Shown one piece after another: positions 5,326 through 19,901 of a DNA stretch of 37,791 bases. The notes under the pieces are model-generated. The model saw only the letters and a program-made list of their open reading frames with translations, was not told the origin of the DNA and ran no database searches. The DNA comes from Marivita sp. XM-24bin2. GTDB lineage: Bacteria > Pseudomonadota > Alphaproteobacteria > Rhodobacterales > Rhodobacteraceae. Both the position numbers and the translations under genes were made by a program. Every line of letters starts with the position of its first letter. Position 1 is the stretch's first letter. The DNA is taken from contig QCWH01000039.1 of the NCBI GenBank assembly GCA_003149565.1, forward strand, positions 1 through 37,791, in the 5' to 3' direction.

Positions 5326-6744
5326 GTGCTTTCAAAACTCAGCCTGCGGCTCCGCATCTTTCTGTTCTTCTGCCTGCTCGGATTTGGCGGTCTCGCGTCA
5401 GTGGGCTTGGCCCTGTGGTTTGGCTATGCTCGCGCGATGGAGACGACAGTTGCAAATGGTTTTACCTTTGCAGCAATCCTCGCCGCATTTCTGATCCTTG
5501 GGCTGACCGTCGGCATCTGGCTCTTGTTTGACGAAAACGTCGCCAAACCCATTGAGCGCCTTGCCTCGCAAATGCGCAGCCGCGCACATGCGGGGGTCGA
5601 GGGAGACCTGGACACCAACGCGGCCCGCTATCTGGGCGACCTGGCTCCGGCGGCGTCAGCCGTGACCCGGCAGCTGAACGATACAGCACTCAGCACAGCG
5701 CAGGCTATCGCCAATGAGACCGCCCGCCTGAGCGCTGAAAAAGCCCGGCTGACCGCCCTTTTGACCGAGATCCCGGTGGCGACGATTCTGGTCAATCCAA
5801 ACGGTCAGATCGTGCTTTATGACGGACAGGCTGCCGAGGTTCTGGCCCAACTGGGTGTGCCCCGCCTGAACGCGCAGATCTCTGAATATTTCGATGCCAA
5901 ATCCCTTGGCGCGGCCGTGAACAAGCTGGGTCGCACAGGGATGGACGTTGCCTTTACCGCACACTCCCCCGATCGTGCACAAAGCTTTGACACCAAGCTG
6001 AAGCCAATGGAGGGCGGTGGTTACCTGATGGTGATCGACAGCCAGACACTTGAGATCTCGCCCGATGCTGCCCGTCCGCTGGTTTATGATTTCGACCTTC
6101 TCGACCAACAGCGCGGTGCGGCGGAGATGGATATTCTGGACCGACCGCTCAGGTCTTTGTGTTTCTCGGTGTTCGACACCGAAACGACCGGGCTCTTGCC
6201 GCACAAGGATGACGTCGTACAGCTTGGCGCGGTGCGGGTGCTGAATGGGCGCATTGTAGAAGGCGAACAGATCAACCAACTGGTCGATCCCGGCCGCCCG
6301 ATCCCACCCGCCTCGAGCAAGGTGCACAAGGTCACCGACGCGATGGTGCGCGGGCAACCGGATATTCGGGCTGTCGGCAAAAGGTTCCACGACTTTTCGC
6401 GCGATGCTGTGATCGTGGCGCATAACGCGCCGTTCGACATGGCGTTTCTGCACCGCCACGCCAAAGACACCGGCGTCACGTGGGACCATCCGATCCTTGA
6501 TACAGTGCTGTTGTCTGCCGTGTTGTTCGGCGCCAGCGAACGCCACACACTGGACGCTCTATGCGCGCGCTTGAACGTCACGATCCCGACCGAGCTGCGC
6601 CACACTGCTCTTGGCGATGCACGCGCGACGGCCGAGGTTTTGGTGAAGATGCTGCCGATGCTTGAGGCACGTGGCCTGACGAGCTTTGGTCAGGTGATCG
6701 AGGAGACGCGCCGCCATGGCCGCCTCCTCGAAGATCTCAACTGA
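5326..6744 (+). CDS. Membrane-anchored DEDDh 3'-5' exonuclease with PAS-like region
   Basis: A 472-aa protein. Two transmembrane helices (about residues 9-33 and 40-65), a HAMP-like and coiled region, a PAS-like region (about 145-245), then an exonuclease domain of the DnaQ/epsilon superfamily. Catalytic residues are visible: FDTETTG (D284, E286), HNAPFD (second Asp) and HTALGDA (His and third Asp), so the active site is intact. Start is a GTG at 5326 with AGAGGA 7 nt upstream; the frame is open further upstream but inside the preceding gene. This architecture, next to DUF294 and an acetate-type permease, suggests a signalling or nucleotide-turnover role rather than replication proofreading. 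Its stop overlaps the convergent tctA stop by 8 nt. Confidence 0.88.
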   Translation: MLSKLSLRLRIFLFFCLLGFGGLASVGLALWFGYARAMETTVANGFTFAAILAAFLILGLTVGIWLLFDENVAKPIERLASQMRSRAHAGVEGDLDTNAARYLGDLAPAASAVTRQLNDTALSTAQAIANETARLSAEKARLTALLTEIPVATILVNPNGQIVLYDGQAAEVLAQLGVPRLNAQISEYFDAKSLGAAVNKLGRTGMDVAFTAHSPDRAQSFDTKLKPMEGGGYLMVIDSQTLEISPDAARPLVYDFDLLDQQRGAAEMDILDRPLRSLCFSVFDTETTGLLPHKDDVVQLGAVRVLNGRIVEGEQINQLVDPGRPIPPASSKVHKVTDAMVRGQPDIRAVGKRFHDFSRDAVIVAHNAPFDMAFLHRHAKDTGVTWDHPILDTVLLSAVLFGASERHTLDALCARLNVTIPTELRHTALGDARATAEVLVKMLPMLEARGLTSFGQVIEETRRHGRLLEDLN

Positions 6745-8227
6745 GAGGCACCCGCTTGCGCAAGGTGCTGCGGGTGATCGCAAACACCGTGATCGCCGTC
6801 AGCAACCAGAAGAACCAAGTAATCGGCCCCCGGAACAGGATCAGCGGGTCGCTGCCCGACATCAGCATCGACTGGCGGAAATTGTCCTCGAGCAGCGGGC
6901 CGAGGATGAAAGCAATCAGGAACGGCGCGGCAGGGATGCGGTTACGCATCATGATATAGCCAACCCAGCCCATGACGAACATGACACCCACATCGAAGAT
7001 GTTGTTGTTCACTGCGTAAACCCCGTAGATGCAGAGCACCAGAACGCCCGGCATCAGGATGCGCTTTGGCACATCCGCCACGAACTTGAAGCCGCGGATC
7101 GCGACCGACCCCACCAGCAGCAGGAACACCGAACTGACGATCAGGCCGATGAAAAGGCCGTAGATGATGTCGACGTTCAGGATGAACATCATCGGCCCCG
7201 GCTGAAGCCCGTGCACCATGAACGCGCCGATGATGATGGCGGTGATGACGTCTCCCGGCACACCCAGCGCCAAGAGCGGGATCAGGGTCGCGCCCGCCAC
7301 CCCGTTGTTGCCCGCCTCGGACGCAGCCACGCCTTCGATTTCACCTTTGCCGAAATTCGCCTTGTTCTTCGACGTGCGACGCGCTTCTGAATAACTCAGG
7401 AACGCAGACGGCGCTGCTCCAATGCCGGGGATCGAGCCAAGGAACACGCCGATCATGCTGCCCCGAATGATGCTTTTGAAGCTGCCCAGATAGTCTGCAA
7501 GCGTGCATTTGCTTTTGCCGAGCGCGCGTGTGCGACCCAGATGCGCCACCGGGTTCCACGCCATAGCGATGATCTCGGGGATAGCAAAAAGACCAATCAA
7601 CACGGCAATGAAATTGAGGCCGCCCATCATGTTCGGATCGCCAAACGTAAAGCGGTTGGTTCCGTAAACGAGGTCCAGCCCCACAGTCGCGAGCAGCAGG
7701 CCAGCCAAGGCAGACAGTGCTCCGCGCAGCAGGCTTTCGCCAGATACACCAGCGATGATCGTCAGCGAAAACAGGATCAGCGCAAAGAATTCCGGCGGTC
7801 CGAAGTTCAGCGCAAAAGAGGCCAGCCACCCTGCAAACAGGATCAAAGAAAGGTTCGAGACCGCGTCAGCGGTACAGGACGCATAAAGCGCCATACCCAG
7901 CGCCCGGCCCGCTTCGCCCCGTTCGGCCATTGGGTGACCGTCCAGGATTGTCGCCGATGAGGCTGGCGTGCCCGGTGTCTTGATCAGGATCGCCGGGATC
8001 GAACCGCCGAAGATACCGCCCTTGTAAACTCCCAACAGCAACAGAATGCCATTGATCGGGGCCATCGAGAACGTGAATGGCAAGGTGAGCGCCACCGCCA
8101 TTGTTGCAGAAAGGCCGGGGATGGCGCCGCCGATCACGCCAATGACCAGCCCGCAGAACAGCATGAAAAACGCTTCGACATTGCCGACCAGCGAGAGCCC
8201 GGCAGCAAGGGAGTCCATCAGGCTCAT
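6737..8227 (-). CDS. tctA: Tripartite tricarboxylate transporter permease, large subunit (TctA)
   Basis: A 496-aa inner-membrane permease with about 12 helices. The TctA signature is present near the N-terminus (IPGLSATMAVALTLPFTF), with the duplicated half-repeat around GSIPGIGAAPSAFLSY. It moves a carboxylate delivered by the periplasmic TctC protein using the ion gradient. Start at 8227 overlaps the tctB stop in ATGA, giving translational coupling; an upstream in-frame extension would overlap nearly all of tctB and is rejected. It ends tail-to-tail with the exonuclease gene, with no terminator visible. The substrate is not encoded in the sequence; the neighbouring dicarboxylate-type enzymes suggest a C4-like acid. 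Confidence 0.95.
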   Translation of the reverse strand: MSLMDSLAAGLSLVGNVEAFFMLFCGLVIGVIGGAIPGLSATMAVALTLPFTFSMAPINGILLLLGVYKGGIFGGSIPAILIKTPGTPASSATILDGHPMAERGEAGRALGMALYASCTADAVSNLSLILFAGWLASFALNFGPPEFFALILFSLTIIAGVSGESLLRGALSALAGLLLATVGLDLVYGTNRFTFGDPNMMGGLNFIAVLIGLFAIPEIIAMAWNPVAHLGRTRALGKSKCTLADYLGSFKSIIRGSMIGVFLGSIPGIGAAPSAFLSYSEARRTSKNKANFGKGEIEGVAASEAGNNGVAGATLIPLLALGVPGDVITAIIIGAFMVHGLQPGPMMFILNVDIIYGLFIGLIVSSVFLLLVGSVAIRGFKFVADVPKRILMPGVLVLCIYGVYAVNNNIFDVGVMFVMGWVGYIMMRNRIPAAPFLIAFILGPLLEDNFRQSMLMSGSDPLILFRGPITWFFWLLTAITVFAITRSTLRKRVPLS

Positions 8228-8724
8228 GGCAACCTCACGAAATTGCCTTGCGGGATCGCCACCCCGGCGACATGCGCAAAGAAGGCATAAAGCAAGAGCG
8301 GAACAATCACAGCGCAGACAAGGGCTACAATCGGGTGGCGTGTCCGGAACAGAAACGCACAGGCCGCGAAGGCCAACATTGCCGTCCACACCATGCCCAG
8401 CCTTGGGAGCCCAAACATCACGAGCACCATGATAACCCCAAGCGCGGCCAACCGCAGCCAAGGCGCAGCGCGCTCAGGATGGGCGGTGCCCTCTTCGTCT
8501 TCAAATGGGACGTTCGCCCCGGGCTTGAACGCCGAGGCCAAAAGCCCCAGCCCGATCACTCCGGTCAGCCCAGCCAGAACATAAGGCCAGAACAGCGGCG
8601 ACAGGATGATATTGCCAACATTCGACGGTGCGAAAACAAATGTCGGGATGGCAAAGAGCACGAGGAACAGCGCGAACAGGGACGTGAAAATCCCAAGTCG
8701 CAGATGCAAGGACTTCTCTGACAT
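8224..8724 (-). CDS. tctB: Tripartite tricarboxylate transporter small permease (TctB)
   Basis: A 166-aa membrane protein with four predicted helices (about 10-32, 41-63, 88-125 broken in two, 132-155), typical in size and layout for TctB/DUF1468. Works with TctA as the membrane part of the importer. Sequence conservation in this family is low, so the call rests on topology plus position between tctC and tctA. It overlaps tctA by 4 nt. Confidence 0.9.
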   Translation of the reverse strand: MSEKSLHLRLGIFTSLFALFLVLFAIPTFVFAPSNVGNIILSPLFWPYVLAGLTGVIGLGLLASAFKPGANVPFEDEEGTAHPERAAPWLRLAALGVIMVLVMFGLPRLGMVWTAMLAFAACAFLFRTRHPIVALVCAVIVPLLLYAFFAHVAGVAIPQGNFVRLP

Positions 8725-8750
8725 GGTGTGAGCGGCTCCGCAGGTGGAAA

Positions 8751-8774
8751 CGCCGGGACCAATGGGCCCCGGCG
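8751..8774 (-). other. Stem-loop between tctC and tctB
   Basis: CGCCGGG (8751-8757) and CCCGGCG (8768-8774) form a 7-bp GC-only stem with a 10-nt loop, placed 25 nt after the tctC stop. It lacks a following T-run. A likely role is partial attenuation or 3'-end protection so that the periplasmic binding protein is made in excess of the permease, as seen for many binding-protein operons; that role is inferred. Confidence 0.5.
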
Positions 8775-8799
8775 CATATCAGTTTCGGATCAGGCCAGT

Positions 8800-9777
8800 T
8801 TAGCCTTCGATCCGCATACCCAGTTCATCCACAAGGGCTCTGAACGTGTTGTACTGCTCAAGGATAAAGGCGTTTGCCTCTTCAGGGTCCATCAGTTCGA
8901 TGACAGAGCCGCGTGCTTCCATCGTGGAGCGGAAGGTTTCGTCCTCGGTGGCCGCAGCCATCCATTCGCCCCACTTTGTCGCCACGTCATCCGGCAGCCC
9001 ATCCGGGCCAGCAATCCCGGTCCAGCCCACCAGTTGGTTCAATGCGGGCTTGCCCAAATCGTTCGCTGTCGGAGCGTCAAAGCCAACAACCGGCTCTGCC
9101 GTTGTCACCATCAGCGGCTTGAGCTGACCGTTCGACACAAAGCTCGCCAGAGCGGACGAGTTGGTGCAGATGAAGGTCGCAGTGCCATTCAGAACCGCCG
9201 TCGCGGCTGCGCCACCCCCCTGCTGCGGGATGTGTGTCGCCTGTGAAAGCGGGTCTTCAACACCGAACTCCTTGAGCACCATCGCACCAGCAAGGTGCAA
9301 CAGAGATCCTACGCCGGACGAACTGTAGCTGACGCCGCCCTCTGCAACCTTGGCGACAAGAGCATCCATCGAGTCGATGCCGCTGTCCGGGCGCACCGCG
9401 CAGGCCACCGGGTTGATCTCATAGACTGTCACAAAGCGGAAATCATCCAGCGTGTAGGGCAGTGTCGCCTTCATCGCCGGGTTCACCGAGTGGGAACCGA
9501 CACGCGCAAAAAGCATTGTGTAGCCATCCGGCTTGGCGTTCTGAACGGCAACCGACCCGGTTGCGCCGCCTGCCCCGGTGACGTTTGCCATCACAAGCGC
9601 CTCGCCTACAGCCGAGCCAAGCGGCTCTGCAATGGTCCGCGCCGAGATATCCGTTGCGCCGCCGGCACCGTAGGGGATGATCATGTTGATCGGGCGTTCC
9701 GGATACTCCGCCAGCGCCGGACCGGCAATCAGACCCACCCCAAGCGCCAAAACAGAACCAAGTGTCCGTAGTTTCAT
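8800..9777 (-). CDS. tctC: TctC/Bug-family periplasmic substrate-binding protein
   Basis: A 325-aa exported protein with a Sec signal peptide (cleavage after ALA, about residue 23). Family motifs: PYGAGGATDISAR, corresponding to PxxAGGxxDxxAR whose Asp contacts the ligand, and a GVSYSSSGVGSLLHLAG segment matching the second binding loop. It captures a carboxylate and hands it to TctAB. SD ggaggaga is at 9787-9780. First gene of the tctCBA operon and divergent from a LysR regulator 124 bp away, the usual arrangement for a ligand-induced importer. Confidence 0.95.
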   Translation of the reverse strand: MKLRTLGSVLALGVGLIAGPALAEYPERPINMIIPYGAGGATDISARTIAEPLGSAVGEALVMANVTGAGGATGSVAVQNAKPDGYTMLFARVGSHSVNPAMKATLPYTLDDFRFVTVYEINPVACAVRPDSGIDSMDALVAKVAEGGVSYSSSGVGSLLHLAGAMVLKEFGVEDPLSQATHIPQQGGGAAATAVLNGTATFICTNSSALASFVSNGQLKPLMVTTAEPVVGFDAPTANDLGKPALNQLVGWTGIAGPDGLPDDVATKWGEWMAAATEDETFRSTMEARGSVIELMDPEEANAFILEQYNTFRALVDELGMRIEG

Positions 9778-9901: not shown

Positions 9902-10813
9902 ATGTCCATCAGATTACTCAAAACGCTGGTCGCTGTAGCGGACCATAAAACCTTCAGTGCGGCAGCGGATGCGGTGTTTATCACTCACGCGGCTGTAAGC
10001 CAGCAGATGCGCACGCTTGAGGCTGATCTGGGCATCGCTTTGTTCGACCGCAGCCATCGCACACCAGAATTGACGCCTCTGGGACGGGCCGTTGTTGCGC
10101 GGGCGCGCAAGCTGGTGATGGACTATGACAACCTTGTCCCATCGGTTCTTGGCGATGACGGGCTGCGTGGCGAGATCTTGCTGGGTGCGGTCCCGACCAC
10201 TCTGATCGGCCTTGCGCCGCAATCCATGTCGATCCTGCGCGCCCATTTCCCGGAACTGCGCGTACGGATAACACCTGCCCTGACAGCAACATTGCTGTCA
10301 GGCTTGGACCGGGGGACCTACGATGTTGCGCTGCTGACCAAACCGGCTTTGATGCCCCTCGGCTTGGTCTTTCTGGAGATCGCTGAAGAACCACTACATC
10401 TCATCACCGGGTCTGAAGTGACCGAGACGGATCCGGTGCGCATCCTCGAAACCCAACCGTTCATTCGATTCAACCGAGATGCGGTGGTCGGCACGCTGAT
10501 CGAGGCATGGTTGCAGGAACGCGGTATTCGCGTCGCTGAAGCGATGGAATTGGAGAACCTCGAAGCGATTTCCAGTATGGTTCATGCAAATCTTGGCGTC
10601 TCGATCGTACCGCGAGCCTGCGTGCAAAGCGCCTATGCTCTTCAGCTAAAAACCGTGCCCCTCGGGCCGCAGCCCCCCTCACGCGTATTGGGGTTGGCCT
10701 ATCGCAAAGAACATCCGAAGCTCCGCGTGATCGAGGAAATACACGCCGCCATGCTCCGGGCCGTTGCGGAAAACGCACCCGATGAAACCGCTTCAGGACC
10801 AGATATTTCGTGA
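9902..10813 (+). CDS. LysR-family transcriptional regulator
   Basis: A 303-aa regulator with an N-terminal winged helix-turn-helix (residues 2-60; FSAAADAVFITHAAVSQQMRTLE contains the recognition helix) and a LysR substrate-binding domain (about 88-290). Divergent from tctCBA, so it probably controls that importer and perhaps the convergent enzyme operon in response to the transported acid. Its stop overlaps the GTG start of the downstream TSUP exporter (GTGA), meaning the regulator and exporter are co-translated. Confidence 0.93.
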   Translation: MSIRLLKTLVAVADHKTFSAAADAVFITHAAVSQQMRTLEADLGIALFDRSHRTPELTPLGRAVVARARKLVMDYDNLVPSVLGDDGLRGEILLGAVPTTLIGLAPQSMSILRAHFPELRVRITPALTATLLSGLDRGTYDVALLTKPALMPLGLVFLEIAEEPLHLITGSEVTETDPVRILETQPFIRFNRDAVVGTLIEAWLQERGIRVAEAMELENLEAISSMVHANLGVSIVPRACVQSAYALQLKTVPLGPQPPSRVLGLAYRKEHPKLRVIEEIHAAMLRAVAENAPDETASGPDIS

Positions 10814-11553
10814 CCTTCGACGCTATTCTTTTCATCACGCTGGGCGCGTTTGCCGGCGGTTTTGTAAACGGGTTGGCAGGAACCGGGACTGCTCTGTTTG
10901 CCCTTGGTTTCTTCCTCGTTGCACTGAATCCGGTGAGCGCGGTTGCGGTCGTGGCGCTGATGTCGGTCATCACTGGAATCCAAGGCCTCTGGGTCGTGCG
11001 CGAGGCGCTGAGCCGGAACGTGTCGCGCCTGATGCGGTTTATCATTCCCGGTCTTTTGGGCGTGCCGGTGGGCATCTCGCTTCTGACGTTTATCGACGCG
11101 GATACACTCAAGCTGATCATCGGCGGGCTGCTTATCGTCTACGGCGGCTTCTTCAGCTTCCGGGCAAACCTGCCGAAATTCGAACGCCGCACACCGGTGC
11201 TGGATTCTCTGATCGGACTGACGGGTGGTGTCTTGGGCGGCATGGCCTCGCTTTCTGGGGCCCTGCCAGTGATCTGGTGCTCGATGCGCCCTTGGCCAAA
11301 GGCCGAAACCCGCGCGGTATTGCAGCCTTTCAATGTCAGCGTGCTGTTCACGACAACGGTGATGCTGTGGTGGCGCGGGGCCTATGACACGCCCACGATC
11401 ACCGCGTTCTTAATCGCTCTACCAACATCGCTCCTTGCCGCACAGATCGGCATTGCCGTGTTCCGCCGCATCTCTGACAACGTGTTCCGTCGCCTGCTGA
11501 TCGGCCTCTCTCTGCTCTTGGGACTGGGCATCCTGATCCGCGCTCTATTTTAA
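10810..11553 (+). CDS. TauE/SafE (TSUP) family anion permease
   Basis: A 247-aa membrane protein with about eight helices in two repeats; the first repeat has the family-like FAGGFVNGLAGTGTALFAL and the second GLTGGVLGGMASLSGAL. TSUP members export or import sulfite, sulfoacetate or other organic/inorganic anions; TauE is linked to sulfonate breakdown. Start is GTG at 10810 overlapping the LysR stop by 4 nt. Its coupling to the regulator of a tct importer and its position near a sulfite-oxidase-fold enzyme make sulfite or an organosulfonate a plausible cargo, which is inference only. Confidence 0.88.
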   Translation: MTFDAILFITLGAFAGGFVNGLAGTGTALFALGFFLVALNPVSAVAVVALMSVITGIQGLWVVREALSRNVSRLMRFIIPGLLGVPVGISLLTFIDADTLKLIIGGLLIVYGGFFSFRANLPKFERRTPVLDSLIGLTGGVLGGMASLSGALPVIWCSMRPWPKAETRAVLQPFNVSVLFTTTVMLWWRGAYDTPTITAFLIALPTSLLAAQIGIAVFRRISDNVFRRLLIGLSLLLGLGILIRALF

Positions 11554-11579
11554 GCCTATCATCTGATCGGAGAACGCAT

Positions 11580-12197
11580 GTGCTGACACTGTATTATGCC
11601 AAGGGGTCATCCGCCCTCGCCCCGCATATCCTGCTGGAAGAGGTCGGCGCGCAATATGCCGTTCACGAAGTTCCCATCGCCAAAGGCGCGCACCAGGAAC
11701 CCGAATATCTTGAGATCAATCCCAAGGCGCGTGTTCCCGCGCTGATGACACCTGATGGCCTGATCACCGAGAATCCCGCGATCCTGACCTATATTGCGGA
11801 CACCCACCCTCGGGCAGAAATGTTTCCGGATACCCCGTTCGCCCGCGCCGAGGCGAACGCACTCTGCGCCTATCTGTGCGGAACCGTGCATGTGGCCTTC
11901 GCCCATCTGCAACGTGGCGCCCGCTGGGCTGACAGCGCCGAGGCGCAGGGTGCCATGAAAGCCAAGGTCGTCAGCAACCTGCAGGCCTGCGCGCGGATCA
12001 TCGAAGACCGCCACATGAAGAGCCCCTGGGCTCTTGGGGACCAGTTCAGCCTGTGCGATCCCTATCTGTTTCTCGTGCCGCGCTGGATGGCCAAGGCAGG
12101 AGCCGACTTGTCAGAGTTTCCCAAACTCGCTGCACATCACGATGCGATGTTGAAGCGCCCAGCCGTCCTGACCGTGATGGCCGTGCACGGGCTATGA
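11580..12197 (+). CDS. Glutathione S-transferase family protein
   Basis: A 205-aa soluble protein with a thioredoxin-fold N-terminal domain (1-78; the active-site region is AKGSSALAPHI, Ser where beta-class enzymes have Cys, and the glutathione gamma-glutamyl contact ENPAIL) and an all-helical C-terminal domain. Start is a GTG at 11580 with GGAG 7 nt upstream; the ATG two bases earlier is out of frame and stops at once. Third gene of the lysR-TSUP-GST run, and convergent with the ThDP enzyme gene 4 nt away. Substrate unknown. Confidence 0.88.
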   Translation: MLTLYYAKGSSALAPHILLEEVGAQYAVHEVPIAKGAHQEPEYLEINPKARVPALMTPDGLITENPAILTYIADTHPRAEMFPDTPFARAEANALCAYLCGTVHVAFAHLQRGARWADSAEAQGAMKAKVVSNLQACARIIEDRHMKSPWALGDQFSLCDPYLFLVPRWMAKAGADLSEFPKLAAHHDAMLKRPAVLTVMAVHGL

Positions 12198-12201
12198 TCG
12201 T

Positions 12202-13767
12202 TTAGCGAAGCACCGGCGCAGGCAAGCCCTCGATCATGACATTGACGCATGATGGCTTACCCGACGCGATGGCGCGGCGCAGCGCGTCCGGCAGGTCTGC
12301 GTGGTGCGTCACGTATTCACCATGTCCACCCAGAGCCATGACCACCTCATCGTAGCGCGCACCGCTCAGTTCACAGCCCGTCAGACGCTCGGCACCGAAT
12401 TCACGCATTTGGATCTGGTGTTCCGCGTTCCACCTCATGTCGTTTCCGATCACTGCGACGAACGGCACGTTTTCCCTTACCGCTGTCTCAAACTCGGCAA
12501 GATGAAATCCTGCTGTGCCATCCCCCATCATCGCGATCACGGTCGCCTCAGGGTCTGCCGCCCGCGCCGCCATGGCATAGCACAGCCCACCGCCGATTGC
12601 CCCCGAGACCCCGTTAATCAAACGCCGGGGCGCTGACAGACCGGCCTGCGCCCATTGGCCAAACTCACCGCCGTCGCAGACAAGGATGGGTGCTGTCGTG
12701 TCTTCAAGTGCCGCCTCCACGGCAGCGCATAGAGCCATGGAATTCATCATGAAATCAGACCGATCCTCAACCCGCCGCGCGCAGGCATCACGGACTTTTC
12801 CCAGCCAGCCGTCTGGCCGTTCTGGCGGTGTTCCAACTGACAAACCGCGCGCGACGTCAACCGGATCAGCCTCGAGGCTGCGGGTCAGTCTTTCGGCGCA
12901 ATTATTGCGTGCGCGGGACAATTCAGCTGGGTCCGCGTGCACAATCGCCCACCCTGCCTTTGGCGCGGCCGCTGCGAATTGCAACGTGAAATCCAGCGGC
13001 TTGCCCAGAAGCAGCACCCGATCCGCTTCGGCAAAGACCTGCGCAATCGCCCCCAAGGACGGGTCATTCAGCCCGCGCGGACTTTCCATGACCACGGTCG
13101 GCGCGCCTGTCGTCTTCTCGAACCGTTCCGCCAGTCCCGGCTGACGGGTCATGTTCAGGGACGGACCAAAGACAACGATCGGGCGCTGTGCGCCGTCCAG
13201 CCAATCGCGCAGCGCGGAGGTGTTGGTCGGCTCGATTGGCGCTTTTGGCGGCAAAGAAAAGCCCTCCGCCGCCTGCAGCACCACGTCAGCTGGCAGAGAG
13301 ACATGCACCGGACCGGGCCGGCCCTGCTGCGCCATGCACACCGCCTTGTCGATCACATCGGCCAGATCCGCCGCCCGTGTCACACGCACCGACCATTTGG
13401 TCAGCGACTGTGTCAACGCGACCTGATCCATCTCCTGAAACGCGCCCTGTCCGTCCTTTGCCACCGGGCTGTCCCCACTGAGCAACAACACCGGCGTATC
13501 CGAGGCCCGCGCGGTCAGCAGCGGGCCTATGGCATTTCCAAGCCCTGCACCGGCGGTGACCAGCGCCACGCCCAGACCACGTGAGACCTGCGCATAACCT
13601 TCGGCCATATAGACAGCCGCAGCCTCGTGCCGCGTGTGATAAAGACGGATGCCGACATCAAGGCTCGCATCGAAGAGCGGCATGATCTGGTTACCCGAGA
13701 GCGCGAAGATGTCCTTGACCCCATGCGCCGCAAGGGTCTGCATCACGACATCCGCACCGCGCGTCAT
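12202..13767 (-). CDS. ThDP-dependent acetolactate synthase/decarboxylase family enzyme
   Basis: A 521-aa three-domain ThDP enzyme: PYR domain with the cofactor-activating Glu48 (HTRHEAAAVYMAEGYA), central domain, and PP domain with the metal/diphosphate motif GDG (415-417) to N442. It resembles IlvB-type proteins but is shorter than true acetolactate synthases (about 560-590 aa), and no small regulatory subunit gene is nearby, so branched-chain synthesis is unlikely. In this operon it could decarboxylate a 2-oxo acid made by the hydratase and dehydrogenase. Sulfopyruvate decarboxylase and Xsc belong to the same superfamily but cannot be assigned. Last gene of the eight-gene operon; its ATG overlaps the molybdoenzyme stop by 4 nt. 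Confidence 0.88.
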   Translation of the reverse strand: MTRGADVVMQTLAAHGVKDIFALSGNQIMPLFDASLDVGIRLYHTRHEAAAVYMAEGYAQVSRGLGVALVTAGAGLGNAIGPLLTARASDTPVLLLSGDSPVAKDGQGAFQEMDQVALTQSLTKWSVRVTRAADLADVIDKAVCMAQQGRPGPVHVSLPADVVLQAAEGFSLPPKAPIEPTNTSALRDWLDGAQRPIVVFGPSLNMTRQPGLAERFEKTTGAPTVVMESPRGLNDPSLGAIAQVFAEADRVLLLGKPLDFTLQFAAAAPKAGWAIVHADPAELSRARNNCAERLTRSLEADPVDVARGLSVGTPPERPDGWLGKVRDACARRVEDRSDFMMNSMALCAAVEAALEDTTAPILVCDGGEFGQWAQAGLSAPRRLINGVSGAIGGGLCYAMAARAADPEATVIAMMGDGTAGFHLAEFETAVRENVPFVAVIGNDMRWNAEHQIQMREFGAERLTGCELSGARYDEVVMALGGHGEYVTHHADLPDALRRAIASGKPSCVNVMIEGLPAPVLR

Positions 13768-14870
13768 TTGCTGGCCTCGGCCACATGCACCCGCACGCGG
13801 TGAACGGAATTGTTGGCAAAGCCTGCCATATCGAACGGTGCCTCCAAAGGTTGGGTATTGCCGTTCGCGTCCGTCGCCCGGCAGGCCAGATCATAGACGC
13901 CCGGCACAGCCTCCCAGTTGATGCGCCAGCCGGTCCAAGCATATGTGTCACGACGCCCGGTCAATTCGGCGTCGTGCCATGTGTCGCCCAAGAGCACCTC
14001 TACCCGCGTGATCGGAACACCGACACCGGACCAAGCCCGCCCTTCAAGCGTCACGGGGCCCGCCTGTAACCAGCGCTGCCGCGTCACCCAATCGGGCACT
14101 CCCGGCGGTTTCATCAGTGACTTCACCCGGATCGCCGTAACCGGCGTGCCAGGATCGTTCTTGTCCTTGCGCAGACGGTAGGTCTGCACTTGCTGAAACC
14201 CTTGGTAGCGCTCTGTCAGCGCCTCAATCGTCGTCAGCCATTTGACAGACGCCATTCCGTACCAACCCGGCACGATGATCCGCAAAGGCGCACCATGCTG
14301 CGGCAGAAGCGGCTGGCCGTTCATCCCCCAGACCAGCATCACGTCCAGATCGGCGATCTGGTCCGGCGTCAGGCTGCGGCCAAAGTAATGCGCGTGGCCT
14401 TTGTCGAAGCCATAATCCGCGCCGAGAAAGGCAAAATCCTGCACACCGCTTTGCGGTTTGGCCCGCTCCAGCAAAGGCGCAAGCGGCGTGCCGGTCCATT
14501 CCGAAGTACCCACCGCCTCAAACATCCATGGCATTGAGAAACACCGCGGGCTGACCCCGGCCCGCCCGTTACCCGCGCATTCGAGTGTCACCGGCCGCGT
14601 CACCTCGGGCAGCGCGCGGATCTCCTGCATGCCAAGCGCATAAGGCGCATCGAACGCACCTTCAAAGCGCAGCACATGGTCAGCATCCGTCAAGACGGGC
14701 ACATCGAAATGGTTGAGCAGGTAGTGCGTGCCTGTGGGTGTGATCTCCAACCCCAGCGTTTCCAGCAGCGCGCCCGAATTGCGGTTCGCAAGTGCCACTT
14801 CCTCGGGCGAGAAGACGCCTTCTGTCACCTCGGGCCGTTTGGCTCCCGGCGCAAATGGGTTCTGGATCAT
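13764..14870 (-). CDS. Sulfite-oxidase-fold molybdopterin enzyme, cytoplasmic
   Basis: A 368-aa molybdoenzyme of the sulfite oxidase superfamily. The Mo-ligating cysteine is C98 in LECAGNGR, and a C-terminal Mo-co dimerisation domain (about 255-365) follows. No Sec or Tat signal and no heme domain are visible, so it should stay in the cytoplasm and use an unknown electron acceptor. Known relatives oxidise sulfite (periplasmic SorA/SorT with signal peptides); cytosolic members are uncharacterised. Start at 14870 overlaps the upstream hydratase stop as ATGA. In this operon it might remove sulfite released from a sulfonate, a hypothesis only. Confidence 0.87.
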   Translation of the reverse strand: MIQNPFAPGAKRPEVTEGVFSPEEVALANRNSGALLETLGLEITPTGTHYLLNHFDVPVLTDADHVLRFEGAFDAPYALGMQEIRALPEVTRPVTLECAGNGRAGVSPRCFSMPWMFEAVGTSEWTGTPLAPLLERAKPQSGVQDFAFLGADYGFDKGHAHYFGRSLTPDQIADLDVMLVWGMNGQPLLPQHGAPLRIIVPGWYGMASVKWLTTIEALTERYQGFQQVQTYRLRKDKNDPGTPVTAIRVKSLMKPPGVPDWVTRQRWLQAGPVTLEGRAWSGVGVPITRVEVLLGDTWHDAELTGRRDTYAWTGWRINWEAVPGVYDLACRATDANGNTQPLEAPFDMAGFANNSVHRVRVHVAEASK

Positions 14871-15532
14871 ATCACCTCGTCCGACCGGTCGTCGCTTTCG
14901 CCGTAGCGCTTGAGCACGGCGGGTTTCGTGCCTTCGTAGACCCGCTCGATATTCTGTGCGATCTTGGCATTTTCCCGTTCGAAGAGGCAATCGCCATTCA
15001 TGTCCGAGGCCACGATGAACGGCCCCATCTTGTTGCACCTGATGACCCACATGGCCTGCGCAAGACCCAGTTCCTCGTTCCAATGGACAGCTTCAACGTT
15101 TTCAACACCCCGCCCAAGCAGAGCGCCGGTGCCATAGCCCACGGTCGACAGGTAGACCGCGCCGTTGGGCACAAAGTAGGATTTGTAATCCTTCGAAGAC
15201 ATCCCGCCCTTGCCGATGATCAGCTTCGCGCCGGTCTTTTCCATCCATTCCGGCAACCACTTGGCAAAGCGGAAGGAGGCCGTGGCGGTCACTGCGCCCA
15301 TATCAAAGCTGCCATCCGCGTTGATCCGCGCCGCAGGAGAGCAGTGGAAATTGGCGGCGCTTTCGGACGGCAACTCCATGGGAATATTGGCTTTATCCTC
15401 CAGCGCACGCATGTAGACGCCTTCCCGGGCGGTGTACATCAGCCCGTCCAGATAGACGATGTCGCCCAATCGCAGCTCGGCAATCGCCTCGGGTGTGGGT
15501 GTGGTCGAAAGTCGAATCTCACGCGGTTTCAT
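14867..15532 (-). CDS. Class I fumarase-like hydratase, beta subunit
   Basis: A 221-aa protein matching the C-terminal half of iron-sulfur class I fumarases (the TtdB-like subunit of two-subunit enzymes). The swivelling-domain opening LRLGDIVYLDGLMYTAREGVY and the GTGALLGRGVENVEAVHWNEELG segment are recognisable. In this family the first loop usually reads RDxxH; here it is REGVY, which may alter specificity. Start at 15532 is set by AAGGAAGG just upstream; an ATG five codons earlier (15547) is possible. It is separated from the alpha subunit by a triple palindrome, and overlaps the next gene by 4 nt. Confidence 0.88.
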   Translation of the reverse strand: MKPREIRLSTTPTPEAIAELRLGDIVYLDGLMYTAREGVYMRALEDKANIPMELPSESAANFHCSPAARINADGSFDMGAVTATASFRFAKWLPEWMEKTGAKLIIGKGGMSSKDYKSYFVPNGAVYLSTVGYGTGALLGRGVENVEAVHWNEELGLAQAMWVIRCNKMGPFIVASDMNGDCLFERENAKIAQNIERVYEGTKPAVLKRYGESDDRSDEVI

Positions 15533-15562
15533 CAGCCTTCCTTCCATAAAAGTGCTTGGACC

Positions 15563-15629: not shown

Positions 15630-15635
15630 CCCGCC

Positions 15636-16592
15636 TCACTCTGCCGCCTCGCGCATCGGGTCCCATTCAACAGTCTCGCGCCGCTGGTACGGCGTGAACC
15701 AATCGGGGTCTGTACGGTGCTCGACCCGGCCATCGGGATAAATCCGCGCCACGGCCCGGCGCGAGGACAGGCAGAAGGCGTGCACGGACATCGGCATTCC
15801 GCCAGTGTGGCAGTAGCCCACCTCAATATTGCAATCGATCACCATGTTCTTGCCGACAAACCCCATCGCGCCCATGCCGATGGAGTTGCCCAGCTCCTTG
15901 AACTCATCCTCCATCTCGGCAATGCGCGGATCGGAGTTGCGGCTTCCCACGGTGCGCAAGACCGAGGCGCGCTTGCCCAATGTCATGCAGATGTCTTTCG
16001 ATCCTCCCAGCCCGATCCCGATGATCGCAGGCTGGCAGGCCAGACCGCGCTTGCCAAAGGCCATCAGGCTGTCGAGGTAGAACCGTTTGATCCCCTGAAT
16101 GCCATCACTCGGGAAGAGCATCCGGTAGTCCGTGCCGAAGAGCCCGCCCTTGTGAACGGTAATGAGATCAATCCATTCACCCTCCGGCTCGAACCCGTAT
16201 TCGATCTCGGGCGCACCAATGCCCACATTGTTGTTGTGATCGGTCCGCCAGAGCGGGTGTACCCGATTGGGCCGAAGCGGCACGCCATTGGTCGCCGAGG
16301 CCGTCGCTCTCCGCAGCGCGGTTTCCAGCGCACACATGCCGCCTTCGACACGCGCGTCATTGCCCAGCTTGACGAACCAACGCGGCACGCCCGTATCCCC
16401 ACACATCGCGCGGCGGTCTTCCTTGGCGGCTTCGTAGTTCTCCAGCATCGCCTTCAGGACAAAGGACGAGAGATCGCCGTCTTCGGTCTCAGCGGCCTTC
16501 TTCAGCCCGTCGAGATAGTCCTCGGGGATCTCGATGGCGGCCTTGTCCATTAGGGACTCAGCCGTTTTCTGGATCAGATCTATCGGGATCAT
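15636..16592 (-). CDS. Class I fumarase-like [4Fe-4S] hydratase, alpha subunit
   Basis: A 318-aa protein matching the N-terminal half of class I fumarases and TtdA of L-tartrate dehydratase. Three cysteines expected to ligate the cluster are present: C64 (CGDTG), C186 (CQPAIIGIGLGG) and C274 (FCLSSRRA). With the beta subunit it should hydrate or dehydrate a C4-type dicarboxylate. Its gene follows the SDH-like flavoprotein, so an alkene product of that dehydrogenase is a natural substrate. Start at 16592 has GAGG a few bases upstream. A long structured spacer lies between it and the flavoprotein gene. Confidence 0.9.
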   Translation of the reverse strand: MIPIDLIQKTAESLMDKAAIEIPEDYLDGLKKAAETEDGDLSSFVLKAMLENYEAAKEDRRAMCGDTGVPRWFVKLGNDARVEGGMCALETALRRATASATNGVPLRPNRVHPLWRTDHNNNVGIGAPEIEYGFEPEGEWIDLITVHKGGLFGTDYRMLFPSDGIQGIKRFYLDSLMAFGKRGLACQPAIIGIGLGGSKDICMTLGKRASVLRTVGSRNSDPRIAEMEDEFKELGNSIGMGAMGFVGKNMVIDCNIEVGYCHTGGMPMSVHAFCLSSRRAVARIYPDGRVEHRTDPDWFTPYQRRETVEWDPMREAAE

Positions 16593-16620
16593 TCTGGGCC
16601 TCGCGTGTGAGCGTTGCTTC

Positions 16621-16699
16621 GTCCGGCGCAAGCCGGACAGCCCCCGACCGCCCCCCCGGGCGGGGGCTTCACCCCCACCCGCAGTCGCGGGCTGTCCGG
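16621..16699 (-). other. Mutually exclusive stem-loops before the hydratase alpha gene
   Basis: Reading the transcript (- strand): CCGGACAGCCC (16699-16689), a central GCCCCC/GGGGGC hairpin (16667-16650), GGGCTGTCCGGC (16643-16632), a TTGC loop, then GCCGGAC (16627-16621). The third element can pair either with the first (11 bp) or with the last (7-bp hairpin, 16638-16621). Such alternative pairing resembles an attenuator or translation switch. The last hairpin ends about 28 nt before the hydratase ATG. No T-run follows, so termination by itself is not evident. Confidence 0.65.
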
Positions 16700-16746
16700 T
16701 GCCAAATGTCGGTCCGGGCTATCCATGTCTTTCACGGCTGATTTCA

Positions 16747-18510
16747 TCACTGCGCCGCCACCAATGTCTCTGGCTCCCCCTCGGGCAGCACGGTTTCGCC
16801 CGGCCGCACGATGGTGAACTGCACATCCTCGCGCCCCACCTCGACCGCGCCATCCACCTGCCGCGCGACGGTGAAATAGCTGTCCTCCATCGCGCCCGCG
16901 TCGGGGAAATCCTCGCGGTAATGCGCCCCGCGCGAGTTCTCCCGCGCCAGTGCCGCCTTGGTGATGACCTCGGAAATATCGCAGAGAGACCGCAGGTTCA
17001 GCCAATCGTGCCAGGTGAGGTTGAACGCCAGATTGTCGGCGGCAACACCCACATCGCCCAGCGCGCCCGAGATCTCGGCAATTCGGCTCAAACCACGCTT
17101 CAGACCGGCTTCGGTGCGCATGACACCCACCTCGTCCCACATCGCCTCTTGCAGCTGCTTGCGCAGCGGCAGAACCAGCTCTGGTTTGCGCGTCAGCGGA
17201 TGACAGGCGCGCATCAACTCCGCTTCCATCACGCCCTCATCCGGATCGCGCAGCGCGCCCATGCCGCGAATGTCGGCCCCCATCACATCGCCCGCGATGC
17301 CGCCATAGACGGTGGAATTGGCAACGCCGTTGCCGCCCAGTCGGTTCGATCCGTGCGCGCCTCCCGCGTCCTCCCCCGCCACGTAGAGCCCTTCCATCGC
17401 CGTGCGCGTGTCCACATCGACCACGACGCCGCCCATGAAGTAATGCGCCGTCGGCACCACCTCGACGAGACCACCTGCCAGATCGAACCCGCAATCGGCA
17501 CAGCGCTTGACCATGCCCTTGAACTTTTCCCGCACCATGTCCGGCCCGAGATGCGACATGGAGATGAACACACCCTCCTGCTCGGGATTGTTGTTCTTGC
17601 GCATTTCCGCATAGATGCCCCGGCTCACCACATCGCGGGTCGCACGTTCGCCCTTGGTGTCATAATCAAACATGAAGCGCTGGCCGGAATGGTTCACCAA
17701 CTGCCCACCTGCCCCGCGCAGACCTTCCTCCAGCACTGTCCCGGTCATCCGCGTGTGATCGCCGGCCAGCAAGCCGGTCGGATGGAACTGCACCATTTCC
17801 ATATCGCGCAGCGGCAGACCCACGCGCAGCGCCATGGCCAGCCCGTCCATCGTCTTGTCACCGGACGGCGTGTGATACTTGTACATGGTCGGGCCACCGC
17901 CCGTCGCCATCAACACGGTCTTGGCGCGCACAAAGCGGAACCGCCCGGTGCGCATGTCGATCATGAGCACACCTGCCAGTGCCGACCCATCCTTCGTCGG
18001 GATCAGGCCAATCGCGCGGTGCTCCTGCAGCTTCTCCACGGGGCGCGACAGAACCTGCTCCATCAGACGGTTGATGATCTCGATCCCCGTCAGGTCGCCC
18101 TTGTGCACCGTCCGGTCCGCCGTCTGACCAGCGAAGGCCTTCTGGTGCAACGACCCATCCGCGTTGCGGTCGAAGAAACACCCAACCTCGTTCTCCAGCT
18201 CGCGGATGCGCACCACCGCCTGTTCGCAGAGCCGCCACGCCATGTCCTGATTGGGCAGCCATTTGCCGCCCTCGATCGTGTCCATGAAGTGCCGCTCGAC
18301 GCTGTCCCCGTTGCCCAGTGCCACATTGTAGCCGCCCTGCACCATCCGCGTGCAGCCGCATTTGCCGATCAGCCCCTTGACCGCGATGGTCACCTTGGTG
18401 CCCTCGGGCGCGGATTGCATCGCATGCAGCGCGGCAAACATGCCCGCCCCGCCCGTACCAAGGATCAGAATATCTGTGTCGTGCCGGTCGATGTCTTTTG
18501 TCGTAAACAT
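16747..18510 (-). CDS. SDH/fumarate-reductase-like flavoprotein subunit (SdhA paralogue)
   Basis: A 587-aa FAD protein. Rossmann motif ILGTGGAGMFAA (16-27), substrate-site HPTG, catalytic Arg in the ATRDVVSR stretch, catalytic His in PTAHYFMGG, and SNRLGGNG near the C-terminal carboxylate site are all conserved, so dicarboxylate oxidation or alkene reduction chemistry is expected. The His that covalently binds FAD in SdhA/FrdA is replaced by Cys53 (GKCGCTRMVQGG, aligned on QGG). The operon supplies its own B subunit and two anchors. It is probably a dedicated dehydrogenase for a succinate analogue rather than the TCA enzyme. Starts 1 nt after the anchor gene stop. Confidence 0.9.
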   Translation of the reverse strand: MFTTKDIDRHDTDILILGTGGAGMFAALHAMQSAPEGTKVTIAVKGLIGKCGCTRMVQGGYNVALGNGDSVERHFMDTIEGGKWLPNQDMAWRLCEQAVVRIRELENEVGCFFDRNADGSLHQKAFAGQTADRTVHKGDLTGIEIINRLMEQVLSRPVEKLQEHRAIGLIPTKDGSALAGVLMIDMRTGRFRFVRAKTVLMATGGGPTMYKYHTPSGDKTMDGLAMALRVGLPLRDMEMVQFHPTGLLAGDHTRMTGTVLEEGLRGAGGQLVNHSGQRFMFDYDTKGERATRDVVSRGIYAEMRKNNNPEQEGVFISMSHLGPDMVREKFKGMVKRCADCGFDLAGGLVEVVPTAHYFMGGVVVDVDTRTAMEGLYVAGEDAGGAHGSNRLGGNGVANSTVYGGIAGDVMGADIRGMGALRDPDEGVMEAELMRACHPLTRKPELVLPLRKQLQEAMWDEVGVMRTEAGLKRGLSRIAEISGALGDVGVAADNLAFNLTWHDWLNLRSLCDISEVITKAALARENSRGAHYREDFPDAGAMEDSYFTVARQVDGAVEVGREDVQFTIVRPGETVLPEGEPETLVAAQ

Positions 18511-18511
18511 G

Positions 18512-18850
18512 TCAGATCGCCTGCAAAAGAAAGGTTGTGGAGACAAGGAACGAGCCGGCCACCGCCGCTGCCGCCCATGTCTTTTGAGGCGCGGACCACG
18601 GCAGCCATTCCAACGCAATCAGGCGCAGCCCGCCGAACAGATGCACCGCCAAAAGGAACACCAGACCGAACTCGGCCGCCTTGACCAGCGGCAACTCGGT
18701 CAGCGTCAGAACTGCGTCGAGCCGCGCCGCATCGGTCACCGCCATCGATAGCACCCAAAAATGCAACGGCAGGAACAAAGCCAAACCCAGCCCGGACAGC
18801 CGGTGCAGCAGATAAGCCAGCCAAAGCGGATGAGCGCGTGCAACCTTCAT
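18512..18850 (-). CDS. SdhC/D-type cytochrome b membrane anchor (first)
   Basis: A 112-aa membrane protein with three helices. It carries SGLGLALFLPLHFW in helix 1 (His candidate heme ligand) and HLFGGLRLIALEW in helix 2, the H-x3-G-x-R pattern of SDH anchors. It would anchor the A/B subunits and pass electrons to ubiquinone. Starts in a 4-nt overlap (ATGA) with the other anchor gene; the flavoprotein starts 1 nt after its stop. Assignment as C or D is arbitrary. Confidence 0.85.
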   Translation of the reverse strand: MKVARAHPLWLAYLLHRLSGLGLALFLPLHFWVLSMAVTDAARLDAVLTLTELPLVKAAEFGLVFLLAVHLFGGLRLIALEWLPWSAPQKTWAAAAVAGSFLVSTTFLLQAI

Positions 18851-19176
18851 GCTGTCACCGCCCAGACCGCCTGCGCGCCCAGCAGCAAAAGTCCCAGCCC
18901 GATCAAGGCACTGATCACGTCACGCTGCCCGCCACGCAGTCCGGCCCATTCGCCAAGGATGGTGCGAAGACCGATGGCCGCATGAATCGACACCGCCACC
19001 ACGAACAAGCCGTAGAAGACAAACCAGAAGGCCGAGCCTTGGGTTCGTCCAAGGATCTCCGCCGCTGACAGCCCGCCCTGAATGGCGTAGATCATCACGC
19101 CGATATGCACGACCACAAACGGTGCCATGACCAGCGCCGAGAGGCGTTGCGCCATGTAGAGGTGAAACTCGCTCAT
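18847..19176 (-). CDS. SdhC/D-type membrane anchor (second)
   Basis: A 109-aa protein with three predicted helices. MAQRLSALVMAPFVVVH at the N-terminus matches the RxSG/A...H opening of SDH anchor subunits, and IHAAIGLRTILGEW repeats the H-x3-G-x-R pattern. Together with the other anchor it would form the heme b/quinone domain. The ATG overlaps the iron-sulfur subunit stop by 4 nt, so the frame extension beyond it is ignored. Confidence 0.85.
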   Translation of the reverse strand: MSEFHLYMAQRLSALVMAPFVVVHIGVMIYAIQGGLSAAEILGRTQGSAFWFVFYGLFVVAVSIHAAIGLRTILGEWAGLRGGQRDVISALIGLGLLLLGAQAVWAVTA

Positions 19177-19901
19177 TTGCGCCCCCCGAAAAATCGCTTC
19201 GCCGTCGCGCGCTTCAACCCGGCGATGGCCGAAAGCGGGTCCAACTCGTTCGGGCAATAGGCGGTGCAGGACCCCATAGAATGGCAGGAATGACAGCCAC
19301 CCTTGCCCGACACCGCGTCAAGGATCGCATCGCGGTCGGCGTCCTTGGCGTCATTGTAGAGCGTCCACGCGCGTTGCAGCGCCGCCGGGCCGAGGTAGTC
19401 TGGATTGCCCGCAACGGTGTCGCAGGCGGAGTAGCAGACCGAGCAGTTTATACACTCGATCCCGGCATTCGCCTCCTGCCGCTCCATTGCGACTGGATCA
19501 ATCGCTTCGATGGCATCGTCCCGCGTGCGCGTCGGGTGATGCATGCCTTCGGCGGCGACCCATTTGTCAAAGAACGGGTCCATGTCAGCGGCGAGGTCCT
19601 TGATCACAGGCAGGTTGCGTAACGGGCCAACCTCGATCGCGTTGCCGTCGAGAACCTTGCTCACATGGGTGCGACAGGTCCAGCGGGGCACGCCGTTGAC
19701 CATCATCGCGCAGCTTCCACACATGCCGACCCGGCAGGCGAACCGGTAGGTCAGGGTCGGATCGGCGTTCTGCTGAATCCACGACACCACGTCCAGAACC
19801 GTCTGGTTGTCATAAGCCGGCACCTCAAAGGTCTGGGGCCGCAAGGGCGCGTCGGGGCCTCCGCGTTGCACCGTCACAGTCAAGTGGTCTCGCTCTGGCA
19901 C
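19173..19901 (-). CDS. SDH/fumarate-reductase-like iron-sulfur subunit (SdhB paralogue)
   Basis: A 242-aa protein with an N-terminal [2Fe-2S] ferredoxin domain (CRVGMCGSCAMMVNGVPRWTC) and a C-terminal domain with two clusters (CINCSVCYSAC and CHSCHSMGSCTAYCP), giving the [4Fe-4S]/[3Fe-4S] pattern of SdhB/FrdB. It transfers electrons from the flavoprotein to the membrane anchors. First gene of the eight-gene operon. The start is a GTG at 19901 with no clear SD; a TTG six codons later is an alternative, so the exact N-terminus is uncertain. Confidence 0.9.
   Translation of the reverse strand: MPERDHLTVTVQRGGPDAPLRPQTFEVPAYDNQTVLDVVSWIQQNADPTLTYRFACRVGMCGSCAMMVNGVPRWTCRTHVSKVLDGNAIEVGPLRNLPVIKDLAADMDPFFDKWVAAEGMHHPTRTRDDAIEAIDPVAMERQEANAGIECINCSVCYSACDTVAGNPDYLGPAALQRAWTLYNDAKDADRDAILDAVSGKGGCHSCHSMGSCTAYCPNELDPLSAIAGLKRATAKRFFGGRK

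Follow-up and report, generated by a model that had tools for sequence, protein, structure and literature searches.

Complex II enzymes, namely succinate dehydrogenase (SDH) and fumarate reductase (FRD), combine an FAD subunit, an iron-sulfur (Fe-S) subunit, and two small membrane anchors and share catalytic His, Arg, and Gln residues, while two-subunit class I fumarases and L-tartrate dehydratases (PDB 7xky; TtdAB) are split into alpha and beta subunits. 3-Sulfopropionate (3-SP) is the exact sulfonate counterpart of succinate, and both 3-SP and 3-hydroxypropanesulfonate form from the abundant sulfonates sulfoquinovose and 2,3-dihydroxypropanesulfonate (DHPS). PMC11489063 reports that 3-SP can be respired by Bilophila wadsworthia, the route being unknown, and cites a thesis for the degradation of homotaurine in Roseovarius nubinhibens, with 3-SP, sulfoacrylate, and sulfolactate as intermediates. 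The conversion of homotaurine to 3-SP is ascribed to enzymes that act in 4-aminobutyrate breakdown or to homologs of these (PMC11489063 and PMC5320631). Here, we analyze a 37,791-nucleotide stretch from Marivita sp. XM-24bin2 (hereafter, the window; contig C39 of a 4.43-Mb genome), in which an operon of eight genes, sdhB-sdhC-sdhD-sdhA-fumA-fumB-sorX-thdp, is read on the minus strand from 19901 to 12202. Our leading, though still tentative, reading of the sequences is that sdhBCDA-fumAB serves to break down a three-carbon sulfonate, with 3-SP as the most likely candidate.

An initial annotation of the window had proposed a tctCBA importer, a lysR-TSUP-gst cluster, and the eight-gene operon. 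Six-frame open reading frames, their translations, and Pfam scans confirmed all of these genes in position and strand, as follows:

19173 to 19901, minus strand: SdhB-like iron-sulfur subunit (PF13085, Fer2_3, 94 bits; TIGR00384, 182.8 against a cut-off of 88)
18847 to 19176, minus strand: second membrane-anchor subunit (PF01127, 31.7 bits)
18512 to 18850, minus strand: membrane-anchor cytochrome b-type subunit (PF01127, 41 bits)
16747 to 18510, minus strand: SdhA-like flavoprotein, candidate 3-sulfopropionate dehydrogenase (PF00890, FAD_binding_2, 233 bits; Succ_DH_flav_C, 102 bits)
15636 to 16592, minus strand: FumA-like alpha subunit of a class I hydratase (PF05681, Fumerase, 225 bits)
14867 to 15532, minus strand: FumB-like beta subunit of a class I hydratase (PF05683, Fumerase_C, 71.7 bits)
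13764 to 14870, minus strand: SorX, a molybdoenzyme of the sulfite-oxidase fold (Oxidored_molyb, 158 bits; Mo-co_dimer, 51.5 bits)
12202 to 13767, minus strand: thiamine diphosphate (ThDP) enzyme, optional (TPP_enzyme_N, 122 bits; TPP_enzyme_C, 94 bits)
11580 to 12197, plus strand: glutathione S-transferase (GST)-family protein, optional accessory (GST_N, 54.5 bits)
10810 to 11553, plus strand: TSUP/TauE-family exporter, candidate sulfite exporter (PF01925, 109.9 bits)
9902 to 10813, plus strand: LysR-type regulator (PF03466, LysR_substrate, 117 bits; PF00126)
8800 to 9777, minus strand: TctC, periplasmic binding protein, candidate 3-sulfopropionate binder (PF03401, 107 bits)
8224 to 8724, minus strand: TctB, small membrane subunit (PF07331, 41.7 bits)
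6737 to 8227, minus strand: TctA, large membrane subunit of a tripartite tricarboxylate-type importer (PF01970, 472 bits)

With starts taken at the first plausible Met of each translation, four of the seven operon junctions are 4-nucleotide (nt) overlaps (SdhB/SdhC, SdhC/SdhD, FumB/SorX, and SorX/ThDP) and the gap between SdhD and SdhA is 1 nt; SdhA/FumA and FumA/FumB are spaced more loosely, by 154 and 103 nt. The lysR-TSUP-gst cluster converges on the operon and diverges from tctCBA. Since TctA, TctB, and TctC all score above their Pfam cut-offs, the tripartite tricarboxylate transporter (TTT) set is complete. The host genome carries a separate canonical SDH, 33% identical to the SdhA-like protein, and a separate class I fumarase, 27% identical to its counterpart in the operon; the operon genes are therefore paralogs.

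By Pfam, the operon encodes a full sdhABCD subunit set, consisting of flavoprotein, Fe-S subunit, and two Sdh_cyt anchors, and the SdhA-like protein aligns to Escherichia coli FrdA across nearly its whole length. The SDH-site Gln, two His, and Arg residues are invariant in all 107 SdhA-like rows (106 of them distinct). In contrast to complex II, however, the Thr of the TEG motif, which we take to help bind the second carboxylate of succinate, is Glu in 107/107 rows, whereas the host's own SDH keeps TEG and FrdA keeps TE; likewise, the RGEGG of the own SDH has become RGAGG in 106/107 rows. Retention of the catalytic and first-carboxylate residues, together with a change at the opposite end of the pocket, would suit a succinate analogue that differs in one terminal group. 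The flavoprotein also lies below the cut-off of each of the 25 NCBIfam families shown of 30 (TIGR01812, 413.6 against 567.3; TIGR01816, 333.9 against 727.35). Overall homology would be in keeping with a second SDH/fumarase set that serves ordinary C4 acids under special conditions. Given the sub-threshold flavoprotein scores, the active-site change in all 107 rows, the canonical copies elsewhere in the genome, and the association with TSUP and YeiH exporters described below, we regard such a role as very improbable.

The second enzyme has the features of a class I [4Fe-4S] hydratase, namely both domains and three cluster cysteines. Cys63, Cys185, and Cys273 of the FumA-like subunit are invariant in six aligned sequences and align to the cysteines of 7xky_A, and the FumB-like subunit retains, in 110/110 sequences, the Thr, Arg, and Lys of those motifs that it has in common with the fumarase 7xky_B. 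The differences from two-subunit class I fumarase and TtdAB lie near the substrate, in a C-[G/A]-D-T-G motif, found in 113/113 sequences where class I fumarase has CQDTG, and in TATASFRF for GPTTSARM. Among the NCBIfam families shown, neither subunit reaches an equivalog cut-off; the alpha subunit scores 213 in TIGR00722 (cut-off 100.65) and the beta subunit 114.5 in TIGR00723 (cut-off 145.15).

A genome scan for the FumA-like protein yielded 302 confirmed loci. All counts out of 80 below refer to the best 80 of these 302, a selection biased to close relatives, and counts out of 28 refer to a second set of further, more distant loci; 18/80 and 9/28 loci are shorter than 20 kb. The 80 loci are related to one another (L035 and L061 are apparently one contig), and L159/L187 and L160/L185 are near-duplicates. 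The control set comprised 20 arbitrarily placed 20-kb windows from 13 genomes that carry the operon. The profiles for neighbour families were built from one or a few sequences each, and the names YeiH, SorA-like, ADH (alcohol dehydrogenase), and ALDH (aldehyde dehydrogenase) are annotations or working labels, with NCBIfam scores below cut-off where tested.

SdhA and FumB each accompany FumA in 79/80 loci, and the sole locus without SdhA (L090) begins at fumA at a contig end. LysR is present in 70/80 loci and TSUP in 58/80, compared with 1/20 and 0/20 controls. The TctA family is found in 37/80 (1/20 controls), the ThDP enzyme in 24/80 at E 1e-10 and 21/80 above 100 bits, SorX in 17/80, and GST in 16/80. 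Control windows matched TctC, ThDP, and SdhA once each as well, and alcohol dehydrogenase in 2/20, weakly. The conserved unit is thus sdhBCDA-fumAB, usually with lysR and a TSUP exporter, and TctA, ThDP, and SorX are optional. In terms of the initial annotation, which had expected all of its modules to travel together, the core, lysR, and TSUP do so widely, TctA is present in 37/80 loci, and the ThDP enzyme and SorX drop out as core parts. The importer type beside the core varies by annotation, including TTT, tripartite ATP-independent periplasmic (TRAP), ATP-binding cassette, and DctA-type systems. The window TctC is 58-79% identical to the core-adjacent TctC of L156, L161, L162, and L163.

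Counting the own genome, the SdhA-like protein occurs in 34/295 genomes of the family and 16/17 of the genus, and the FumA-like protein in 24/385 genomes of the class and 10/398 of the phylum. The core spans Rhodobacterales to Cupriavidus and Pseudomonas, and because synteny is kept across genera and the SdhA-like counts are as given, the gene arrangement is more than chance. FumA of the best named relative, a Marivita metagenome-assembled genome (MAG), is 98% identical, and identity is still 65-69% in Pseudomonas and Cupriavidus. FumA-like genes lie on plasmids or megaplasmids of Sulfitobacter, Paracoccus, Pseudorhizobium, Methylobacterium, Cupriavidus, and Pseudomonas; since identity in the plasmid search drops from 65% straight to about 33%, the FumA-like family has a clear edge.

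The link to sulfur comes from the neighbours of the core. TSUP or YeiH exporters stand beside it in 58/80 and 13/28 loci, compared with 0/20 control windows, and when SorX and SorT/SoxC are added, the counts become 60/80 and 14/28, again compared with 0/20. In ten genomes with 2-10 TSUP genes each, one TSUP gene lies inside the operon locus in 7/10. Several distant hosts carry more than an exporter. Flanking the core of Pseudomonas sp. MPC6 are TctCBA, TauE, YeiH, and a malonate-semialdehyde-type dehydrogenase (MMSDH) that starts at the last base of fumB; SorT (667 bits, equivalog cut-off 570) and a cytochrome c lie about 7 kb downstream. Methylobacterium nodulans has YeiH and TauE and, within 6 kb, two molybdopterin-dependent oxidoreductases, one of them annotated as SoxC, that each adjoin a cytochrome c. 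In NT-25 and NT-26 (Pseudorhizobium/NT-25), YeiH and TauE directly follow fumB in the same run as the core, and TRAP genes are present, while Paracoccus versutus and P. ferrooxidans have a YeiH gene that overlaps fumB, with TauE next to it.

Further on, P. versutus carries a protein with L-sulfolactate dehydrogenase as its best NCBIfam match (204 bits, cut-off 500), together with a hydroxyacid dehydrogenase, a TTT system, a hisD/short-chain dehydrogenase (SDR)/ADH trio (hisD above its NCBIfam cut-off), two UxaA-family genes, the longer of which matches galactarate dehydratase best but far below cut-off, and a second YeiH; a SorA-like protein (259 bits, cut-off 600) follows about 30 kb from the core. 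These neighbours presumably resemble slcC-comC-slcHFG, hpsNOP, and suyAB-suyZ. The window itself shares with the sulfolactate pathway (SlcHFG importer, ComC-like dehydrogenase, and, as we assume, SuyAB) the TTT importer and exporter families, and in P. versutus the sulfolactate-type genes are adjacent; in contrast, none of that pathway's enzymes is in the window operon, and the window TctC is only 30% identical to the TctC beside sulfolactate-type genes in L160. SlcHFG is named as a TTT system in PMC5812351. As a separate observation, L186 (P. versutus pTAV3, 664000-700000) and L160 outline a sulfonate island of about 35 kb that holds the core, sulfolactate-type genes, hisD/SDR/ADH, UxaA-family genes, and a sulfite-dehydrogenase-like gene.

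Altogether, the exporters beside the core and the sulfite dehydrogenases nearby in some genomes suggest that the substrate of the operon is probably a sulfonate. In this respect, the sulfonate interpretation of the initial annotation holds up in outline, and it is the details of the substrate and of SorX that need revision.

As an example of a substrate, that annotation had named sulfosuccinate: its dehydrogenation would give sulfofumarate, and water added at the sulfonated carbon would lead to oxaloacetate and sulfite. The exporter and sulfite genes, the dicarboxylate-like importer, and an enzyme logic identical to that for 3-SP would all suit this substrate. Other neighbours, however, each present in a minority of loci, fit 3-SP better. 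ALDH, ADH, and sdhB are co-directional in L075, L076, L091, L095, and L100 (L105 has both enzymes at another place in the locus). In L075, the ADH gene and sdhB share 4 nt, and the ALDH is of the succinate-semialdehyde type, although its 608-612 bits are under the cut-offs; the ALDHs of the other loci are 76-88% identical to it. A supply running from alcohol to aldehyde to acid, as this order suggests by analogy, fits the conversion of 3-hydroxypropanesulfonate to 3-sulfopropanal and 3-SP. The run of the core in NT-26 contains a succinate-semialdehyde dehydrogenase (SSADH; 691 bits, subfamily cut-off 646) and a sulfolactaldehyde-reductase-like protein (324 bits, cut-off 348), and NT-25 carries the same annotated pair. 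In addition, a full-length MMSDH lies near the core in 3/28 distant loci (L156, directly after fumB; L157; L183), that of L183 being the only MMSDH found in its genome (G795). Only such local adjacency was used, because MMSDH is a common enzyme and its presence in 31/36 operon genomes does not discriminate; an M. nodulans match was dropped as a fragment of 128 bits.

Sulfosuccinate would leave without a role the ALDH and ADH before sdhB, the GabD-type enzyme of NT-25 and NT-26, and the MMSDH adjoining fumB. It would also keep both carboxylates of succinate and thus offers no reason for the change at the second-carboxylate site in 107/107 rows, and the 3-SP route of R. nubinhibens would go unexplained as well. 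No title among the literature matches listed deals with bacterial genes for sulfosuccinate, and a surfactant review (PMC5445686), in the part consulted, treats only the biodegradability of alkyl sulfosuccinates. We therefore consider sulfosuccinate less likely than 3-SP, and unlikely in its own right.

The R. nubinhibens ISM route to which PMC11489063 refers shares with the operon a succinate-to-malate-like logic and a roseobacter host, and the core is carried by seven Roseovarius-titled loci (L048, L088, L093, L103, L104, L109, and L110). It differs in that no genes are named in the part of PMC11489063 consulted, so that its identity with the operon is something we infer. Judged by title and abstract start, no description of the operon was found among the matches listed for sulfosuccinate, for the enzyme combination, for sulfopropionate, sulfopropanoate, or sulfoacrylate, for homotaurine with sulfolactate, or for 3-hydroxypropanesulfonate, in a search with most subscription papers outside its scope. 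Nor are the operon genes named in the consulted parts of PMC11489063, PMC12890257, PMC5320631, PMC7921117, PMC5812351, and PMC5445686. Homarine, considered as a substrate for a roseobacter operon, was dropped, with no lead among the literature matches listed.

If 3-SP is the substrate, TctCBA would import it, and the SdhABCD-like membrane complex, judging from its homology and retained catalytic residues, would convert it to (E)-3-sulfoacrylate, the counterpart of fumarate, and pass the electrons to quinone. The FumAB-like [4Fe-4S] hydratase would then add water to sulfoacrylate in one of two ways. If the carboxylate is handled as that of malate, water on the carbon beside it would give 3-sulfolactate, to be desulfonated by known enzymes; with water on the sulfonate-bearing carbon, the product would be unstable and would break down to malonate semialdehyde and sulfite, and MMSDH would complete the conversion of the former. 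Sulfite would be exported via TSUP (or YeiH) or oxidized, with LysR as the likely regulator. The first option is suggested by the sulfolactate-type genes of Paracoccus and by the thesis route, against which the MMSDH neighbours point to the second, and the hydration site may differ between lineages. Among the 36 operon genomes, 21 have an Xsc over the cut-off, 27 a GD_AH_second protein, and 31 an MMSDH; many of the GD_AH_second proteins look altronate- or galactarate-type by length.

Hydration at the sulfonated carbon would mean that a class I fumarase-like enzyme cuts the C-S bond of 3-sulfoacrylate with no need for oxygen, ThDP, a radical, or a classical sulfo-lyase, a step that we regard as conceivable but doubtful. 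If true, it would be a new desulfonation mechanism, occurring in marine roseobacters and in beta- and gammaproteobacteria. More generally, the operon would apply the chemistry of complex II and class I fumarase to a sulfonate and show how citric-acid-cycle enzymes were retooled for such compounds; as a defined gene set, found in 34/295 sampled family genomes, it would make the aerobic fate of 3-SP and 3-hydroxypropanesulfonate testable.

Several observations weigh against the assignment to 3-SP. TSUP proteins are not all sulfite exporters, and 20/80 and 14/28 loci have no sulfite-related gene at all. Among the six ALDH loci, only L075 and L076 carry TSUP, 11 of the 23 loci with an ADH above 100 bits lack a sulfite-related gene, and MMSDH adjoins the core in 0/80 of the nearer loci. 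Three operon genomes (G346, 87% complete; G353; G497) have neither an Xsc over the cut-off nor a GD_AH_second protein, in a search that left cysteate-type routes aside, and G346 and G353 lack MMSDH as well. Finally, the Glu at the second-carboxylate site is no obvious partner for a sulfonate.

The last point raises the question of a different group at that end of the substrate. In urocanate reductase, Asp388 in the corresponding helix binds imidazole (PMC7921117), and by analogy the substrate may bear an NH or cationic group. One could thus envisage another sulfur compound, or an NH-bearing propionate analogue recognized by Glu, that is dehydrogenated and hydrated, with sulfite released later. 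The Thr-to-Glu change in 107/107 rows would agree with this, as would the variable accessory inserts, e.g., the isochorismatase-like and homocysteine-methyltransferase-like ones. Nevertheless, the second-carboxylate site keeps its His in 107/107 rows, at a position occupied by Tyr in urocanate reductase (same source), so that an anionic second group is still to be expected, and we judge such a substrate to be improbable.

A non-sulfur homologue was weighed in the same way, e.g., methylsuccinate, which would pass through mesaconate to citramalate and, after activation by a CoA-transferase, be cleaved to acetyl-CoA and pyruvate. Two loci, L167 and L168, speak for it and against 3-SP: in both, a CitE-like lyase, which in L167 is RipC-like (157 bits, cut-off 375), and a CaiB-type transferase are encoded next to the core, and L168 additionally has MaoC-like (FAS1_DH_region) and MmgE/PrpD proteins. 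(The L167 and L168 genomes measure 2.4 and 2.6 Mb and belong to one family.) CaiB directly follows fumA in 10 loci, and the loci without sulfite-related genes would also be accommodated. The TSUP, YeiH, and sulfite dehydrogenase genes across alpha- and gammaproteobacteria would, however, be left unexplained, and CaiB exceeds 100 bits in only 9/80 and 3/28 loci, which makes this route unlikely in our view.

We now turn to the two optional enzymes of the operon. SorX aligns to SorA and shares with SorA, SorT, and SoxC the fold, the Mo-ligand Cys (within ECAGNGR in 27/27 orthologs), and the C-terminal dimerization domain. It differs from them in having no signal peptide visible by eye, a SorA-family score of 160 against a cut-off of 600, and Leu in 27/27 orthologs at the position of SorA R55, which we take to be the substrate arginine; 16/16 more distant sulfite-oxidase-family paralogs from genomes of the same family keep Arg. 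SorX is therefore probably not an ordinary sulfite oxidase, and the function that the initial annotation had given it is weakened accordingly. SorX is tied to the pathway because SorX genomes are strongly linked to the core: the SdhA-like protein is found in 8/10 of them, compared with 34/295 overall (Fisher p = 5e-7, or 4e-6 without the own genome; paralog control, p = 0.03), although kinship overstates the independence of these genomes. In G109 and G133, SorX and the SdhA-like protein are on different contigs. In one such case (L038:7388-10463), the ThDP enzyme and SorX adjoin a broken FumB remnant, and the same genome, G109, keeps the SdhA-like protein on another contig.

The ThDP enzyme belongs to the acetolactate synthase/2-hydroxyacyl-CoA lyase/benzaldehyde lyase superfamily but reaches the cut-off of none of the NCBIfam families shown (25 of 51). 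It was rejected as an Xsc (TIGR03457, 160.5 against 676.4); the host genome has a separate Xsc on contig C7 (917 bits). A 2-hydroxyacyl-CoA lyase role, in which it would act together with CaiB on sulfolactyl-CoA and supply sulfoacetaldehyde to Xsc, stays a guess, as CaiB and the ThDP enzyme are often apart.

Some loci carry additional genes that are absent from the window. Single-gene inserts directly after fumA encode a CoA-transferase III in 10 loci (e.g., L051:10951-12096) and a homocysteine-methyltransferase-like protein in 6 (e.g., L042:10955-11872), and an isochorismatase-like insert lies between sdhA and fumA in 6 loci, two of them apparently one contig (e.g., L049:9381-10001). A nitroreductase-family gene occurs in 35/80 loci (L047-L119), in 33/35 divergent to the core and about 4-5 kb upstream of fumA.

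In the window, a molybdopterin-binding subunit of the xanthine-dehydrogenase type (20057-22291, minus strand) lies directly upstream of the operon; it stands beside the core in only 8/80 loci, six titled Marivita and two alphaproteobacterial MAGs. Near the operon, a second small catabolic locus (28178-31784, plus strand) appears by eye to encode a flavin reductase and a luciferase-like monooxygenase along with a GST, an alpha/beta hydrolase, and a SnoaL-like protein. An integrase-like protein, likewise recognized by eye, is located near the contig end (36201-37484, plus strand) and possibly marks a mobile region.

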